Below, piece by piece: positions 1 to 52,698 of a stretch of 64,000 bases of DNA. How positions within the stretch are numbered: the first letter of the stretch is position 1; each line of letters begins with the position of its first letter. Where the stretch lies: the NCBI RefSeq assembly GCF_037975245.1, contig NC_092571.1, positions 7,972,501 through 8,036,500 on the forward strand, given 5' to 3'. The notes under the pieces are model-generated. The model made no database searches, had not been told where the DNA came from, and saw nothing but the letters and a program-made list of their open reading frames with translations. The position numbers and the translations under genes are program-made. The stretch is from Apostichopus japonicus. Taxonomy: Eukaryota; Echinodermata; Holothuroidea; Aspidochirotida; Stichopodidae.

Positions 1-14
1 ATAGTAATGATACT

Positions 15-153
15 GAATAACACACCAGACAAATTCCACTTCACGACCGGTTTCGTCCTTTTGGGACTCATCAGACAAAGGTAGGAATCGAACCCCCAGA
101 TCTTGTGTCACAAACCGAATGTCGTGAAGTGGAATTTTTCTGGTGTGTTATTC
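15..153 (-). mobile_element. tRNA-like SINE with hammerhead ribozyme, copy A
   Basis: A ~139-bp element bounded by the 15-bp inverted repeat GAATAACACACCAGA (15-29) and TCTGGTGTGTTATTC (139-153). Read on the minus strand it has a tRNA-like part with a good B-box (GGTTCGATTCC, about 81-91), followed at once by a hammerhead ribozyme fold. The inverted repeat extends inward to about 33 bp, so the 5' end of the transcript can pair with the strand that holds the ribozyme cleavage site. The same element recurs at 12844-12988 and 13520-13658. The motifs are seen directly; calling it a SINE or retrozyme-like element is inference. Confidence 0.75.
36..81 (-). ncRNA. Hammerhead ribozyme (type I), copy A
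   Basis: On the minus strand CTGATGA (74-68) is followed by stem II GTCC/GGAC with loop CAAAA, then GAAA (54-51), then ACCGGT, a self-complementary 6-mer that would form a loopless 3-bp stem III or pair between two molecules. The cleavage triplet GTC ends at 45, and the following GTGAAG can pair with CTTTGT upstream of CTGATGA to give stem I, though here three pairs are G-U wobbles. All invariant core bases are present. Very short stem III hammerheads that act as dimers are known from animal satellite and Penelope-like elements. Activity is not shown. Confidence 0.8.
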
Positions 154-164
154 AATATTATTTA

Positions 165-387
165 TTATACAACACCTAATTATATTCCGGCCATTTGATT
201 GGCCAATTGCTCGTCGATTGCATGCAAAATCCGCTCTATTGCACTCTATGAAATAGAACCATGTGTTGTACTTTTTTGATAGCACTTTTTCAATGGTAAG
301 AGAGCAGAGAACCTGTCTGTTCAAAACAATCTGTTGCATGAGTGCATTTTACATCCAATTATGTCCAAATTTGAAGGTGTTGTATAA
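165..387. repeat. MITE-like element with 13-bp terminal inverted repeats
   Basis: TTATACAACACCT at 165-177 is repeated in inverted form at 375-387. No coding sequence lies inside. The same unit is present in the second duplicated copy (from about 13668). No clear target duplication is seen, so the superfamily is not assigned. Confidence 0.5.
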
Positions 388-12011: not shown

Positions 12012-12604
12012 CTGTATAATTATCACGTCGCCATCCCAGTCGCTCATTACCGTCCAGCGGTCGCATGTGATGGACTGCATTTTCGGCGTGAGCAAATTAA
12101 TGAGCGAACTGAAGATACGCCTAAATCTTTTGTAGAGCTTCACCGTACCATAATTAGGCGTGTTTATAAGTTTTTCGGTGACATTGCATCATTATTTGGT
12201 AAGATATAGGCTATTGTGTGACAAAGAACAATTGTCCTGTGGTTGTTGTTGTTTTTTTTTTCACTTTTAAAGTTGAAAGTCTACTTGTGTGTCGATGGAC
12301 AAAACAGCAAAAGCATCAATCCACTTTTCTCACTGTTTTTAGTGTAGCCAATAAGCGATGAACTAATTAGATACACATGACACGAGTGTCAGTTTGCAAA
12401 ACAGACGTCTGCAGTTGGAGTAGGGAATATCCGCCTTCTTGATACCGTGACACAACCGAGTTGTAGTTGGTTGGTATACTGCTGGTGTGAGTTCTTGAAG
12501 GTGAGTCAAACATCCTCCAAGGTTTTCACTGGGTCAGAGAAGAACGTTATATTTTTCGAGTCTAGAAAATTATTTGTCTCCTTTTCGGATCCTTTGTATA
12601 CGTG

Positions 12605-12619
12605 TATATATATATATAA

Positions 12620-12712
<93 letters not shown>
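12605..12712. repeat. (TA)n microsatellite
   Basis: About 108 bp of TA with minor interruptions, inside the large palindrome. Confidence 0.9.
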
Positions 12713-12715
<3 letters not shown>

Positions 12716-12843
12716 AGTGGTTATTCTGTGTAAATTTGTGTAAAGATTATCAGATTCAAAGCGCCAGGGGCGCACTCTGTACAATCTTAATACTTGGGTA
12801 TTACGCCCTTAATGACAGTTATTCAAAGCCAATTTATACGCTA

Positions 12844-12988
12844 TAACACACCAGTAGAATCACTGTGGTCGAGTGGTACGGGCTTAGGTTCGTGACACGA
12901 AGATCCGGGCTTTGATTCCTACCTTCGCCTGATGAGTCCCAAAAGGACGAAACCGGTCGTGAAGTGGAATTTTTCTGGTGTGTTATTC
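12844..12988 (+). mobile_element. tRNA-like SINE with hammerhead ribozyme, copy B
   Basis: The ends are TAACACACCAG and CTGGTGTGTTATTC. The plus strand has a clear A-box-like GTGGTCGAGTGGTA (about 12865-12878) and a B-box-like GGCTTTGATTCC (about 12908-12919), as in tRNA-Leu or tRNA-Ser-derived heads. A complete hammerhead fold follows at 12923-12964. This copy keeps the full tRNA-like 5' half, while copies A and C have replaced part of it with an inverted copy of the 3' end. It lies between the arms of the 12171-13287 palindrome. Confidence 0.75.
12923..12964 (+). ncRNA. Hammerhead ribozyme (type I), copy B
   Basis: CTGATGA (12929-12935), stem II GTCC/GGAC with loop CAAAA (12936-12948), GAAA (12949-12952), palindromic ACCGGT stem III, and a cleavage triplet GTC ending at 12958. 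Stem I pairs CTTCGC (12923-12928) with GTGAAG (12959-12964): six pairs, one a G-U wobble. It is the best-formed of the three copies and every invariant core position is intact. Confidence 0.85.
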
Positions 12989-12997
12989 TTTATTGAA

Positions 12998-13001
<4 letters not shown>

Positions 13002-13047
<46 letters not shown>

Positions 13048-13058
13048 CATATATATAT
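13002..13058. repeat. (TA)n microsatellite
   Basis: A TA tract with two CA interruptions, just after SINE copy B. Confidence 0.85.
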
Positions 13059-13339
13059 AACTGCAGACGTCTGTTTTGCAAACTGACACTCGTGTCATGT
13101 GTATCTAATTAGTTCATCGCTTATTGGCTACACTAAAAACAGTGAGAAAAGTGGATTGATGCTTTTGCTGCGTTGTCCACCGACACACACAAGTAGACTT
13201 TCAAAAACAACAACCACAGGACAATTGTTCTTTGTCACACAATAGCCTATATCTTACCAAATAATGATGCAATGTCACCGAAAAATATTTTTCGAGTCTG
13301 GAAAATTATTTGTCTCCTTTTCGGATCCTTTGTATACGT

Positions 13340-13481
<142 letters not shown>

Positions 13482-13519
13482 GTAACAAGTGGTATGACAG
13501 ATGTATAGTAAATGATACT

Positions 13520-13658
13520 GAATAACACACCAGACAAATTCCACTTCACGACCGGTGTCGTCCTTTTGGGACTCATCAGACAAAGGTAGGAATCGAACCC
13601 CCAGATCTTGTGTCACAAACCGAATGTCGTGAAGTGGAATTTTTCTGGTGTGTTATTC
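13520..13658 (-). mobile_element. tRNA-like SINE with defective hammerhead, copy C
   Basis: The counterpart of copy A in the second duplicated segment, with the same 15-bp inverted ends (13520-13534 and 13644-13658) and the same GGTTCGATTCC B-box on the minus strand. It differs in the ribozyme core. Confidence 0.75.
13541..13586 (-). ncRNA. Hammerhead ribozyme, copy C (core mutation)
   Basis: Same layout as copy A, but the GAAA after stem II reads GACA. The changed base is the core position usually numbered A14, which is required for catalysis in hammerheads. Self-cleavage is therefore expected to be lost or very weak. Confidence 0.75.
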
Positions 13659-14061
13659 AATATTATATATTATACAACACCTAATTATATTCCGGCCATT
13701 TGATTGGCCAATTGCTCGTCGATTGCATGCAAAATCCGCTCTATTGCACTCTATGAAATAGAACCATGTGTTGTACTTTTTTGATAGCACTTTTTCAATG
13801 GTAAGAGAGCAGAGAACCTGTCTGTTCCAAACAATCTGTTGCATGAGTGCATTTTACATCCAATTATGTCCAAATTTGAAGGTGTTGTATAAAACAAATA
13901 ATAAATGGTTTCATACGTGCAATAGTGCAACTATTCCATGAGTTGAAAGATGTAATTTGTTCCATTGAACTCGGCTGCGCCTCGTTGAATAGAACATTCC
14001 ATCTTTCAACTCATGAAATATTTGCACTATTGCACTCATAACCATTTATTATTTGTATACT

Positions 14062-14168: not shown

Positions 14169-15702
14169 ATGATGACTGCTTTGTCCGTTGTCATTGGCAT
14201 TCACCTCGTAGTTATTTTAACGGCATCACCATCATGTCAATGTGCCTGTCGAGATATATATACTACCACCACATGCGATGGCCGCAATAGTAACATTTCT
14301 TCGCTACCTTTTCTTGAAAACAGGGAAACAATTGTAAATCTATTTGTTGTACATTCGAATATACCAGCCTTACGAAATGGTAGTATTCTGCTGCCAACAT
14401 TTCCTAACTTGAGATCTCTTGGATTGTATTCGAACGGAATTTTTCAACTGAATGAACAGTTCTTTGAAAACGTTGCGAATGTTAGTCAATTACACCTACA
14501 AAGAAACGAACTGAGCATGGTCCCTTCTAATTCTTTGAGTGTTCTTACCAAACTCACGTACCTCGCTCGATCTTAGTGGAAATAGAATCCTGGAATTACC
14601 AGCAAAGTGCTTCGTTAACAACATATATTTAAAGGTTGTTATGTTATACAGAAATAACATCAGCAGCGTACACAAAGAAGCTTTCATAGAAATGCGTCAC
14701 CTTGAGGTCTTAAATTTGGCATGGAATAATATCACTGAGATCAATTTGTGTGATGAGAAAACACACCACCTGACATCATTAACTTTACTTAATTTGAAAC
14801 ACAACAGCATGGAATATTTCCATTGTAGTAATAACTTGTCTATGTTGACTTCTTACGATGCGGAAGATAACAAGCTATCTTATTTAGATGAATATTCATT
14901 GCACGGTCTTTCTCAATTGAAGACACTTTGGTTACCAGGAAATCATTTATCAGATGTCCACGAATTTACCTTTGGCAATACTACGCACGGACTACAACAT
15001 TTAACTTTGAGCAGAAATCGGTTTAGCGATATTCCAACACAGTTCATAAAAATGCTCACGTTTTTGGAGAATTTAAACTTGCAGTTTAACTCCATTACCG
15101 CTTTACCTGCACAGGCATTCCAAGCCAATGAATTCCTATATCAAATTAACTTAGAGCATAACTTGATTCATGTGACTGCGCCGAATTCATTGACGGGACT
15201 AACCCGTCTACGTTATCTTAATTTGAGAGGAAATGTTTTAAATGGACTCCCGTCATCAGGTTTCTTGGAGGAGGGAGAAGACTTTGGAATAAATCTCTCA
15301 GGTAACCCATGGACGTGCGACTGCAATGCATTGCCTCTCTACAATTGGTTAAGTAAATCCAGATTCTACGAACATGATCTGATTTGTCAGAGCCCAATCT
15401 CTGTTTATGGTGAACAACTTATGAAGCTCTCAGTTACGGACTTTTGCGATGTCGCGGATATGTTGACTACTCAATGGCAGTTCTACGAGTCTACCACTAC
15501 ACCAAGTCCAACAGTGAACTACGATATTGCTGTTATCAGTGCAGCTATATGGATTTTCGGAGGATTATTTCTCTTAGTTTTTCTTCTTACCAATATTCGA
15601 ATGCTACGACGTTGCATAAACTGCCCAAGGGAGCAAGATAACCGTTTGGCAGCTCCAGAGCCGGACACACCATTGGGCCAAATGCGGGCTCAAATCCCCT
15701 AA
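14169..15702 (+). pseudogene. LRR membrane protein gene, frameshifted copy
   Basis: A near-identical copy of the gene at 655-2184 and exactly 4 bp longer. CTCG is duplicated near 14563-14570 within the third LRR, shifting the frame to a stop at 14574-14576 after 135 residues. Beyond it the original frame stays open to the normal stop, with N-cap, LRRs, C-cap, membrane segment and tail all kept. The lack of other breaks means the damage is recent, or is a sequencing or assembly error. A truncated 135-residue secreted product is possible. Amino-acid differences from copy 1 are few and scattered. Confidence 0.85.
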
Positions 15703-24866: not shown

Positions 24867-43273
<18,407 letters not shown>

Positions 43274-48900: not shown

Positions 48901-51466
48901 TCCTTAAAGTATCTGTATCATTCTGCTCATTCAACTTGTATATAATTTTCTTCTTTACCAGGGAGTCAATTCAGGCTTTATAGAAGACTTCCTTTCACAT
49001 TATAATATTTTGTGATAAAACAAATAAATAAACAAACAAATAAACAAATTTTGATAATATCAGCTACCAAATGGCAGAAAAATCGTATATTTTTGAGAGA
49101 TATAAATTGTGACATGTCCGAGGGTCGCGAACACTTGCCAACCATATGACAATGGTACCTCATAAAACTTCACAAGATCAAGGACTGAAATGTGATTCAA
49201 AGCAATTGTACAGTGTGGAGATTTTAATAAGGGAAAGTACCAAATAAATTCCTGAACAGCATAAGTGGGCCTGATGATTACAAAGACAAGACACTAAAAC
49301 CTCCAGTACGCACATTTCTTTACTAAAATTTAGGGGGGGAAATAGGAAATGGACCAGACTAGAAAACTGATAGAAAGGAGAGAGATGGAAGGATAAAACC
49401 TAACCACAGACAAGGAAAGACAAATATTTCAAAACAAATGAGCAGACTTTTAAGGACTGTAATGAAATGTATTCATTTGCACAACAGGTTTACATAAAAA
49501 CACATCTAGGGGAGAAAAGGAGCTAATCCTTTGAAGAAAAGGGCTTGTGATAGTTGGCAGTAAATTGGTAAGGAATCCTTTGAGTAAGCAACAAAATAGC
49601 AACACACCAGATGAAGATATCGACAAGATTTTTAGGAATAAAAGGTTCTGGGGGGGGGGGGGGGGAATACAGCAGGTAGATTCAAAAGGAAGAAGTGGGC
49701 ATTGACCAAAAATGGTTCAATAGAAGCTCATAGATAAATGTTATCAATTTGTGTAGGTTAACATACAGCAGACTGTGGTACATATGTTCATTATAGATCT
49801 ATAGCTGAGAGGGACAAGTGGGTGTAAATGTTAAAGGTTCTTTTTTGGAAGAAAATCATCCAACACAGAGACTGGATATCAAACATCTTGATCGACCCTA
49901 TGCCTCCTAATGCATTGCGATTGTAACCATGACTCATGAGATCATAGTGTTCTGTATTGAAAGTGAAATATCACAAGTCCTTTGAACAAATGTTACTGGT
50001 GTTCTTTTAATAAAGTGACTCATATGTTTATCTATCTTTTAATAAAGTTGTCTTATATGTTAAGGATATCTATTTATTTTTTTTTGGGGGGGGGGGGGTA
50101 GTTTTTTTTATAGGTGTTATGGTTTTCTATTTTCTTTGATGGGAGTACTCTATTCGATTGAGCCCAAAACTAAAACGGGATTTCTTAGTTTACTTCCTTT
50201 CACAATTTTTACTTATTTGTACTTACTGTATATTGTCTTGTTCACCTTGTAATACTATGTGATGAAACAAAATATTAATAAATAAAAATAAATAAATGTA
50301 TCCTCTCAACTAAATGACTCCTGTATCCAGCATGTACATCAAGAAACACTAATGTCAATCTACTCAAGAACATTCACATTTGGCAAACACCCTGACATAT
50401 GTCAGCACTTGGAACTTGATTTTAGCCACTAGATTCCTTTTTCACTTGCATTCAGCAAGAGATTAAACTAAATATTTTGAAAATTCCAGGGCTGGATATT
50501 TAGATGGCATTTCAACTAACACTGGTGTGGAATATTTTTCCCCCAATAAAAGTTTTAAATAGGCAGCCCCCAGAATTTTAAACTTTAAAAGGTAATGTAT
50601 AAACACTGTTCGCATTGTTAATACTTAACCATCAACATTAACGATTACATAATTAGAAAACTGATTCGCAAATGTAACGGCCAGAAACAGTGACATTCAC
50701 GGACAGTGGCAGTCCTCATTTATTGATGCTTCGTGCTGAGTTACTGTACCACAGTGTTGCATATACTGTACGATACACATTTACTCTCGCGAAACTGGGC
50801 CTACCTAGAACAGACCTACAATAAATAATGCCAGAGTTTCTGTCAAATTTACAAACGTTCTAAAACGGTAACCTCCGCCCTATAAAGCTTAATCAACCTA
50901 CGCAGTTTATAAGTAGTAATATCGTTATTTAAGAAACTTCGGGCGTAAGGTCCAAATCCTCGATGACGGGTTAAGTAAGGCTATCATGGGTATCACTAGT
51001 ATCAGTAACATTTACGGCCATGTACAGTATATATCTTTAACCTGGATGTATACAGGGTAAGGATCAAGCCTTCAATAAATCACGGTGAGGTCGTTATGAA
51101 TGGTTGATATTCGGAATACTTACGCCTGCGTTAACCAGAAACCAAACAGCTTTAAATTCAAATCGATAAAAGGACGTCGTTTTAGTCACGGTTCTAACGT
51201 ACTTAAGACATATACAAGAATCTCCGGCCAATGAGATTTTCAGATCTGTGTAGTACTAGCAGAAGTAGTAAACTAAATGCTAAGCGGCGCACTGCAGCAC
51301 ATGTGCAATATGCCAAATAATGCCCACATGGTGTAATTCTATGTTGCTCCCCGACTGTATATGGAACGCCAAATGCAATCCTACGAACATAGTTAACGAA
51401 GTTGCACCTACACTTTTTGGTTTCGATGATAATCGTAACCTACGTAGTCATGCAGGCGGATGAGTG
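48901..51466. other. Spacer without recognised genes
   Basis: Only short frames. G runs (49650-49664, 50085-50098) and small A-rich repeats are visible. I see nothing else I can support. Confidence 0.4.
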
Positions 51467-52698
51467 CAGGCGCGGATCCAGAGGGGGGGGGGGGGGGTCC
51501 AGGGGTCCCCCTGCTCTTGGCCAAAAAAAAAGAGAGAGAAAAAAATAATTAAATTAAACGTCAATTTTAAACATGTACAGGAGAATTGGAAGTGGGATGG
51601 TGAAACCAAAAAGCGGGCTCAAGGTTTCTTAGCGAACTTAGGCAACTTTGAGATGATTATGTGCCTAGTGATCCTGAAGAACGTTCTGCACCCGCTGCGC
51701 GCAATTACCACCAAGCTGCAGAAGAGGGACATGGATATTAGATCCGCCTACACATCACTGACAGAGGTCAGCAACGATATAGTAGCAATCCGAAGGGATA
51801 TTGATGCCAGGTTTGCCCTTTGGTACCAGGATGCCCTAGACCTCGCCAAGGAGCTGGATGTCGAAGAAGCTAGACCTCGGGCGAAGGGAAGGAATGCATA
51901 CCGGGCAACGCATCCAGCTGAGACCCCAAAGGATTATTTCAAACGAGCAATCGCCATACCATTTGTAGATGATGTCTGTTCCCAAATGAAGGAACGTTTC
52001 GCCACCGACTCCAACGGTGCAATATTAGCACTATTTACCCTCATTCCTTCAGTGATGATAAATATGGAGGTATCGGAACTCCCAAAAGTTGTAGAGGGTC
52101 TAGTCATGTACAGAGATGATTTTCCCCGGTTCAAGAGCCTCCGCACAGAATTGGAAGTATGGCACTCCAAATGTAAGAACATGCAGAATCCCCCAGATTC
52201 ACTGTTGCTAGCACTGCACACATGTAACAAAGACCTTTTCCCTAATTTGGTGGTTCTTCTACAGATCGCATCTGTCATTCCGGTGACAAGCTGTAAAGCA
52301 GAGAGATCGTTTTCTGCGGTGAGAAGGCATAAAACTGTTCTCCGATCAACAATGGGCGAGGAACGTCTCACAGCTCTTGTTCTCATGAACACGTATTATA
52401 ACACTCCTATCGACACTGACGAAGTGGTCCGAAAGTTCATTGAGAAACATCCACGGCGTTTGTTCTCTCCAATCTACCATGAATAGATCATCAATAAAAC
52501 TAGCTAACTCGTACTGATGCAGATACATTTCGAGTGAGTTTTTGTAGGTGCTTTGCATGGCTAAATTGAAGGGGGTTCCCTGTTGTACTTAAATATCCAA
52601 GAATTTCACAATGGATAGAGGGAAACCCACTCCCCTTAGACCCTAGGATCACTGGAGGCCAAATCCCTCACCCTTCCAGAATCCTTGATCCGGCCCTG
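51467..52698 (+). mobile_element. Internally deleted hAT element
   Basis: The ends CAGGCGCGGATCCAG and the inverse CAGGGCCGGATCAAG agree at 12 of 15 bases and enclose 1,232 bp with the C-terminal half of a hAT transposase. I see no matching 8-bp flanks (GATGAGTG versus CATCAAAC), so the insertion is old or the site was rearranged. Confidence 0.75.
51545..52486 (+). pseudogene. hAT transposase, C-terminal half
   Basis: About 313 uninterrupted codons ending at a TAG. The C-terminal region contains the hAT dimerisation motif (SCKAERSFSAVRRHKTVLRS... and LTALVLMN). The upstream part resembles the ZMYM1/DUF4371-type hAT proteins of animals. The N-terminal zinc finger and the first catalytic aspartate region are missing, since full proteins are usually 600-800 residues. 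The open frame continues upstream into the terminal repeat, which is not coding. It may be mobilisable but should not be active. The intact frame suggests recent loss of the 5' part or possible selection. Confidence 0.8.

Follow-up and report, generated by a model that had tools for sequence, protein, structure and literature searches.

Hammerhead-bearing retroelements comparable to the family

The non-LTR retrozymes of animals are tandem repeats with type I hammerhead ribozymes, which give rise to RNAs of 170-400 nt (Cervera and de la Pena 2020, PMC7229834). For axolotl motifs whose stem III is a single pair and whose loop is palindromic, the same report describes activity mainly as dimers (PMC7229834). 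Two papers from 2020, one of them PMC7229834, name Penelope-like elements (PLEs) as a strong or likely helper candidate for retrozymes. The Penelope enzyme of Anolis has been purified, and is reported to use two start sites and to cut and extend both DNA strands (PMC11167929). The Anolis PLE is further described as having AT-rich targets and an optional tail of 30-40 bp, and mutating its ribozyme does not stop insertion (PMC11167929). Within the ORF, the cut is at 26 bp and the main start site at 111-118 bp; subtracting one from the other gives a cut-to-start distance of 85-92 nt. The two strands showed no start-site difference (PMC11167929). Sm-alpha of Schistosoma is described as SINE-like, tRNA-Gln-like and hammerhead-bearing (PMC2770079; PMC8490949).

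The family found in Apostichopus japonicus belongs to the non-LTR animal retrozymes, which are an already known class. Similar to the retrozymes described by Cervera and de la Pena (PMC7229834), it has a type I hammerhead, tandem units within 150-450 bp, a GC content below 45%, co-existing PLEs and a highly self-paired RNA, and it shares a weak palindromic stem III with axolotl HHR_Amex1 (PMC7229834). In contrast, the main text of that report is without echinoderms or polymerase III (pol III), and 3' end sites and inverted twins of the kind reported below are undescribed there. An echinoderm or pol III retrozyme case was not found in the open-licence retrozyme literature searched; the family would be an echinoderm retrozyme case with pol III boxes. 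What is new about the family is the anatomy of its insertions, namely their ends, targets and twins.

Sm-alpha and Sj-alpha (PMC2770079, PMC8490949) also carry a hammerhead within a short SINE-like repeat, a likeness that we draw from their description. However, Sm-alpha resembles tRNA-Gln predictions, whereas the A. japonicus family possesses boxes only and matches no tRNA model. The initial annotation was not aware of a described family that combines a tRNA-like head with a hammerhead in this way, and the suggestion of novelty falls, as Sm-alpha already combines both (PMC2770079). Poseidon of Anolis (PMC11167929) shares with the family a hammerhead upstream of two start sites 30-40 nt apart, AT-rich targets and the use of both strands. 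Differences from Poseidon and the PLEs are the 341-nt unit of the retrozyme and its tail, which is not significantly similar to those of two local PLE families.

The retrozyme copies in the window

The analysed window is a stretch of 64,000 nt on a 28.4-Mb contig of the A. japonicus assembly (671.6 Mb, which was used for all genome-wide counts). It harbours a retrozyme copy on the plus strand at 12710-13008, which corresponds to positions u104-u391 of a circular 341-nt unit (BLAST to the concatenated unit). In this numbering u1 is the base just 3' of the ribozyme cut, and u391 is u50 of the next turn. The copy has (TA)n at both flanks, and its 3' end, at 13003-13008, runs into (TA)n at a site named S1 (u45-50). 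Taken as a whole, the feature is best explained as a copy, truncated at its 5' end, of a non-autonomous non-LTR animal retrozyme, and we consider this very likely. The motifs named in the initial annotation (hammerhead core, stems, ACCGGT, GTC, A box and inverted repeat) were all present at the places given for them.

A second insertion is located on the minus strand at 13478-13664, and consists of a 5'-to-5' inverted pair of family segments without an A box. It shows a single base change in the hammerhead core, from GAAA to GACA. Its duplicate (1-169, minus strand) is part of a duplicated block and is clipped by the window start. The window contains the hammerhead string three times, and 100 shuffles gave none; the two minus-strand strings are at 50-74 and 13555-13579, within copies that span 18-150 and 13523-13655. 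Since the minus-strand copies lie in one block that is present twice, they count as a single insertion. The three copies first proposed are therefore correct for the hammerhead string, but the A-box half is present in one of the three only, both minus-strand copies being without it, and two of the three represent one insertion.

The duplicated block that holds the minus-strand copies is adjoined by a leucine-rich-repeat (LRR) gene, which is found in two copies, at 655-2184 and 14539-15702, with matching flanks. LRR domains were confirmed in the first copy, and in the second the reading frame opens later and seems broken near the start. The protein encoded at 655-2184 is 99% identical, along its full length, to a protein of A. 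japonicus, which identifies the species. A 131-bp inverted repeat (98% complementary, 12286-12416 and 13059-13189) brackets the (TA)n tracts of the retrozyme.

Copy number and the 341-bp unit

A 36-nt ribozyme pattern, with up to two mismatches, gave 417 matches in the genome, and its reversed control gave none. A looser pattern of the hammerhead core matched 319 times (control 0), and a 26-nt pattern taken from the remaining half of the unit gave 289 matches (control 0). The search with the 145-bp query yielded 1117 candidates, 40 of which were scored; the best 40 places were full-length or nearly so and 96-100% like the query. The Rfam hammerhead models, with 74 of 66307 candidates scored, listed 59 matches in the genome, 50 of them over the cut-off; all 20 further matches that were examined among the 59 belong to the same family (78-97% over the best stretch). 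Hundreds of copies are thus dispersed over many contigs, in agreement with the repeat family first suggested, and most listed copies are solitary. A search for relatives in viral contigs gave no exact match.

The length of the unit, 341 bp, was set by head-to-tail copies, for instance by the 341-bp spacing in locus L032, whose unit has a GC content of 41.6%. Each unit carries one type I hammerhead. The arrays include dimers and, in locus L116, three units at 341-bp steps with a fourth, inverted ribozyme. The 145-bp stretch that had been proposed as a unit of about 140 bp is the middle of this larger one.

Adjacent units differ at 1 of 523 sites in L116 and at 1 of 140 sites in L010, and unlinked copies differ on average by 0.132 per site. 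More divergent arrays are L038 (18 of 75 sites) and L083 (102 of 384). Near-identical adjacent units suit repeated turns of reverse transcription on one circle, and a later tandem duplication would give the same likeness. L083 and L084, which look like duplicates of each other, hold an array of over two units that has diverged to 74% identity with the L032 unit.

The hammerhead ribozyme

The hammerhead at 12923-12964 (plus strand) matches the Rfam type I model RF00163 with 38.8 bits, above the gathering score of 34 (E 2.8e-6), which bears out the initial identification as a genuine type I hammerhead. The core reads CTGATGA...GAAA, stem II has four base pairs (GTCC/GGAC) and stem I six (CTTCGC/GTGAAG). 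The trinucleotide GTC directly precedes base 12959, so that the predicted cut falls between 12958 and 12959. Beyond stem I there is an internal loop UACC, followed by an outer helix AUUCC/GGAAU, in which ATTCC of the B box pairs with GGAAT at 12966-12970. In the core, in loop II and in the UACC internal loop, the ribozyme aligns with HH9 (RF02275); it differs in that its score, 40.8 bits, stays under the gathering cut-off of that family (52). HH9 ribozymes are found in amniotes.

With the palindrome ACCGGT, very little stem III can form in cis. When two strands are folded together, ACCGGT pairs between two ribozymes and the energy is -39.1 kcal/mol, compared with -17.5 kcal/mol for a single ribozyme. 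Taken alone, the 70-nt ribozyme region has no unusual stability (z -0.46), and in its lowest-energy fold the start of the core makes extra pairs with the stem III side, which the active fold must lose. One copy, in L138, has ACGCGT in place of ACCGGT, and keeps the self-complementarity.

Among 109 distinct copies, 93.9% of the stem cells were paired, and slid controls gave 33-51%. The compensatory changes between genomic copies called for by the initial annotation did not exceed shuffles (181/500 for the percentage paired, 68/500 for cells in which both sides had changed), in an alignment whose variation is limited as most copies were picked by ribozyme patterns. Covariation was dropped as a proof of the fold, as shuffles do equally well. 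Judged from the aligned copies, hammerheads appear to decay one stem side at a time. This result, like the tandem runs, would suit a DNA-level tandem satellite in which the hammerhead is a passenger without a current RNA cycle. However, the solitary and dispersed state of most listed copies, their recurrent 3' ends in (TA)n and the 96-100% likeness to the query of the best 40 of the 1117 candidates argue against a satellite, which we regard as very improbable.

Inverted arms and folding of the unit

The ribozyme region is enclosed by a perfect 11-bp inverted repeat, with the 5' arm TAACACACCAG at 12844-12854 and the 3' arm CTGGTGTGTTA at 12975-12985, both given for the plus strand. The initial annotation had placed the ends of the element at these arms. 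A foldback or terminal-inverted-repeat DNA transposon (MITE) with TAACACACCAG/CTGGTGTGTTA ends, which contains a hammerhead by chance, would account for this repeat, for the TA adjoining it and for the longer inverted arms of the minus-strand copies. Nonetheless, family sequence runs on outside both arms in most of the 38 extended loci, the tandem units contain both arms internally, and the minus-strand insertions owe their long arms to a 5'-to-5' twin of the element's 3' end. The element extends beyond the inverted repeat, and the transposon explanation, mainly refuted by the extended loci, is the most improbable of those considered.

The retrozyme unit of 341 nt folds with -97.2 kcal/mol, while shuffles average -80.8 (sd 5.0; z -3.25) and none out of 100 was as low. 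In the predicted fold a stem made of TAACACACCAG and CTGGTGTGTTA encloses the A-box hairpin and the ribozyme region. The 11 pairs of this stem are kept in 73-98% of cells (113-122 copies), the second pair being the least often paired, broken by a common variant. As the arms pair in the unit fold and stay paired across copies, they are, according to the folding model, arms of an internal RNA stem, and not transposon ends. MicroRNA-like Rfam matches in the inverted arms and in (TA)n were all far under the gathering scores.

Pol III boxes and tRNA likeness

Upstream of the ribozyme the plus strand possesses two pol III-type motifs, TGGTCGAGTGG at 12866-12876 and a second one at 12909-12919, which resemble the A box and the B box of the pol III consensus. 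The B box is degenerate in the window copy (GCTTTGATTCC), and perfect in many genomic copies (GGTTCGATTCC). The two boxes start 43 nt apart, and the L032 unit has a single match to the pattern; a spacing of 43 nt is close to that of tRNA genes. Per-site conservation of both boxes is about 95% (127-156 copies), and the values of 0.954 (A) and 0.951 (B) are not above those of their neighbours (0.89-0.99 elsewhere).

ARAGORN detected no tRNA at the window copy. With Rfam, the region 12300-13700 yielded no tRNA match at E<=1, and a genomic copy whose B box is perfect yielded none at E<=5. A true tRNA gene or tRNA head is excluded by these results. Pol III-type boxes are thus present as first described, and the tRNA-like head holds as far as two boxes at tRNA spacing, but the tRNA models remain silent. 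Sm-alpha of Schistosoma has a pol III promoter.

A run of five T (T5) at 12970-12974 (plus strand, u12-16) closes stem I, and resembles a pol III terminator, a function that we assign to it from its sequence. A pol III transcript would read the A box, the B box and the ribozyme, and would stop at T5. Nearly all mapped ribozyme copies continue past T5, and two end at it (L089 at u17, L133 at u16). Copies that extend beyond T5 imply pol III read-through, or a template made by another polymerase. The chances that the retrozyme is actively transcribed by pol III appear to us evenly balanced. Pol III transcription, RNA circles and self-cleavage of the retrozyme are inferences.

Ends, targets and twins of the insertions

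BLAST segments were placed on the circular unit to map the ends of the insertions, which gave 136 segments of at least 60 bp, two of them cut by the edge of the locus. Among the remaining 134, the 3' end was at u44-53 (S1) in 66, at u70-88 (a second site, S2) in 36 and elsewhere in 32. Measured from the ribozyme cut, S1 ends lie about 45-50 nt and S2 ends mostly 76-87 nt downstream. The exact edge of S1 is blurred by (TA)n, since S1 is itself TATATAT within the unit.

None of the 134 3' ends was within five bases of the ribozyme cut, a zero that is partly built in since the 36-nt pattern requires six bases past the cut; as most loci were recruited via the hammerhead, 3' ends before the cut are also under-sampled. 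Loci L077-L115, recruited by a pattern that stops at the cut, gave 20 ends at S1, 9 at S2, 13 elsewhere and none at the cut (n=42, three duplicates taken out). Twenty loci selected among the listed matches to the unit's other half gave 24 segments once those running off the locus were excluded; 9 of these end at S1, 4 at S2 and 11 elsewhere, with no end at the cut, and L119/L120 and L134/L135 look like duplicates. As the 3' ends lie past the cut and none at it, the template would have been continuous across the cut, either circular or uncleaved. The sampled copies cross the cut, so that RNA linearised by cleavage was not their main template, and 27 segments span more than one unit.

The 20 bases beyond the S1 and S2 ends were TA-like in 61 of 102 cases, compared with 51 of 5000 random window positions, and the flank was TA-like at 16 of the 136 5' ends. 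Inspected by eye, the (TA)n flanks hide any target site duplications.

Forty abutting inverted pairs were found in 101 loci, and all 40 are oriented 5'-to-5'. Allowing wider gaps added one more 5'-to-5' pair and one 3'-to-3' pair. Both outer ends are at S1 or S2 in 18 pairs, one is in 20 and none in 2. Of the 17 twins whose outer ends both fall at known sites, 14 combine S1 with S2 and 3 combine S2 with S2 (permutation p 0.008); the pair at the window edge is left out of this count. Some of the pairs are duplicates of a single event.

The 5' ends are scattered; two are about five bases or less from u1, and 8 of 136 are at u220-228, a short way upstream of the A box (L018 and L019 probably represent one event). 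These eight ends, the 43 nt between the box starts and the precedent of Schistosoma Sm-alpha, SINE-like with tRNA-Gln-like sequence (PMC2770079), speak for a tRNA-derived, Sm-alpha-like SINE which acquired a hammerhead and moves with the help of a LINE. However, the tRNA models do not match, most 5' ends lie elsewhere, many of them upstream of the likely pol III start, and tandem units, two 3' ends in (TA)n and 5'-to-5' twins are found, for which reasons a SINE is unlikely. Head-to-tail units together with two 3' ends in (TA)n and 5'-to-5' twins are unusual for LINE products. The LINE help first envisaged gives way to PLEs, which the insertion anatomy of the retrozyme fits instead.

Penelope-like elements as probable helper

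The genome contains at least 99 GIY-YIG matches, with 150 of 626 candidates scored. Locus L117 (C4:9028500-9033500) carries RVT_1 and GIY-YIG domains, and is therefore a PLE. It is flanked by (TA)n on either side, and the tract immediately 3' of it contains an inserted, head-to-head retrozyme fragment. On contig C3 (L055), a GIY-YIG match lies 2.6 kb from a retrozyme copy, on its upstream side; it was rejected as a source, as the 3 kb around the copy, read by eye, were unsupportive.

We compared 17 PLE 3' ends, those of L117 and of 16 loci picked from the 99 matches (L158-L173). Ten form a family P1, which includes L117 and the more distant L169, and in which L160 and L161 have a common flank; the other seven form a family P2. 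The 3' end abuts (TA)n in 16 of the 17 (P1 10/10, P2 6/7). Read by eye, the 3' region of P1 possesses a minimal hammerhead-like CTGAAGA...GAAAGCTC, and P2 shows only GGG...CCCGAAACGTC, with no recognisable CTGANGA. Rfam detected no hammerhead in L117 at E<=5. The 3' ends of P2 are near +52 in L159 and L164, and a little before that in L172; in L158, L163 and L171 an optional 29-nt tail takes them to +81 after GTC.

The tail of the retrozyme is not significantly similar to those of the PLEs, since 344 of 1000 shuffles for P1 and 330 of 1000 for P2 were as good. A sequence tie to either local tail was therefore set aside, and the helper is deduced from geometry and target only. The possible Penelope link of the initial annotation gained from this geometry, as two 3' ends, (TA)n targets and 5'-to-5' twins match PLE behaviour. 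The mobiliser of animal retrozymes has so far been a guess, and the two-site, two-strand record of this family is evidence for PLEs; a Penelope-like helper probably mobilises the retrozyme, and the P2 family is a candidate only. With its hundreds of insertions, the family allows a comparison of ends, targets and twins with a purified Penelope enzyme.

Proposed life cycle

The RNA might be transcribed by pol III, using the A and B boxes, or arise through read-through. The hammerhead may act best between two copies, in tandem units or in two molecules, as ACCGGT gives little stem III in cis. Monomers might then be circularised, or uncleaved multimers might persist. A Penelope-like enzyme would cut both strands of a (TA)n tract, and reverse transcription would begin inside the RNA at two sites, yielding cDNAs that are truncated and often joined head to head.

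A more specific model is put forward tentatively, and we hold it to be less likely than not. The retrozyme would parasitise the PLE enzyme by mimicking the layout of its RNA, with a circular template and with the B box serving as outer stem I. Both cut DNA strands would be used simultaneously, one primed at the near site (S1) and the other at the far site (S2), so that a single RNA could give a head-to-head twin. The strand result from the Anolis enzyme is neutral towards the pairing of S1 with S2, and neither supports nor excludes it.

Other features of the window

The ORF at 51464-52486 encodes a hAT dimerisation domain (PF05699). An open frame at 29334-30308 is composed of repeated 16-residue units, and is probably a minisatellite.
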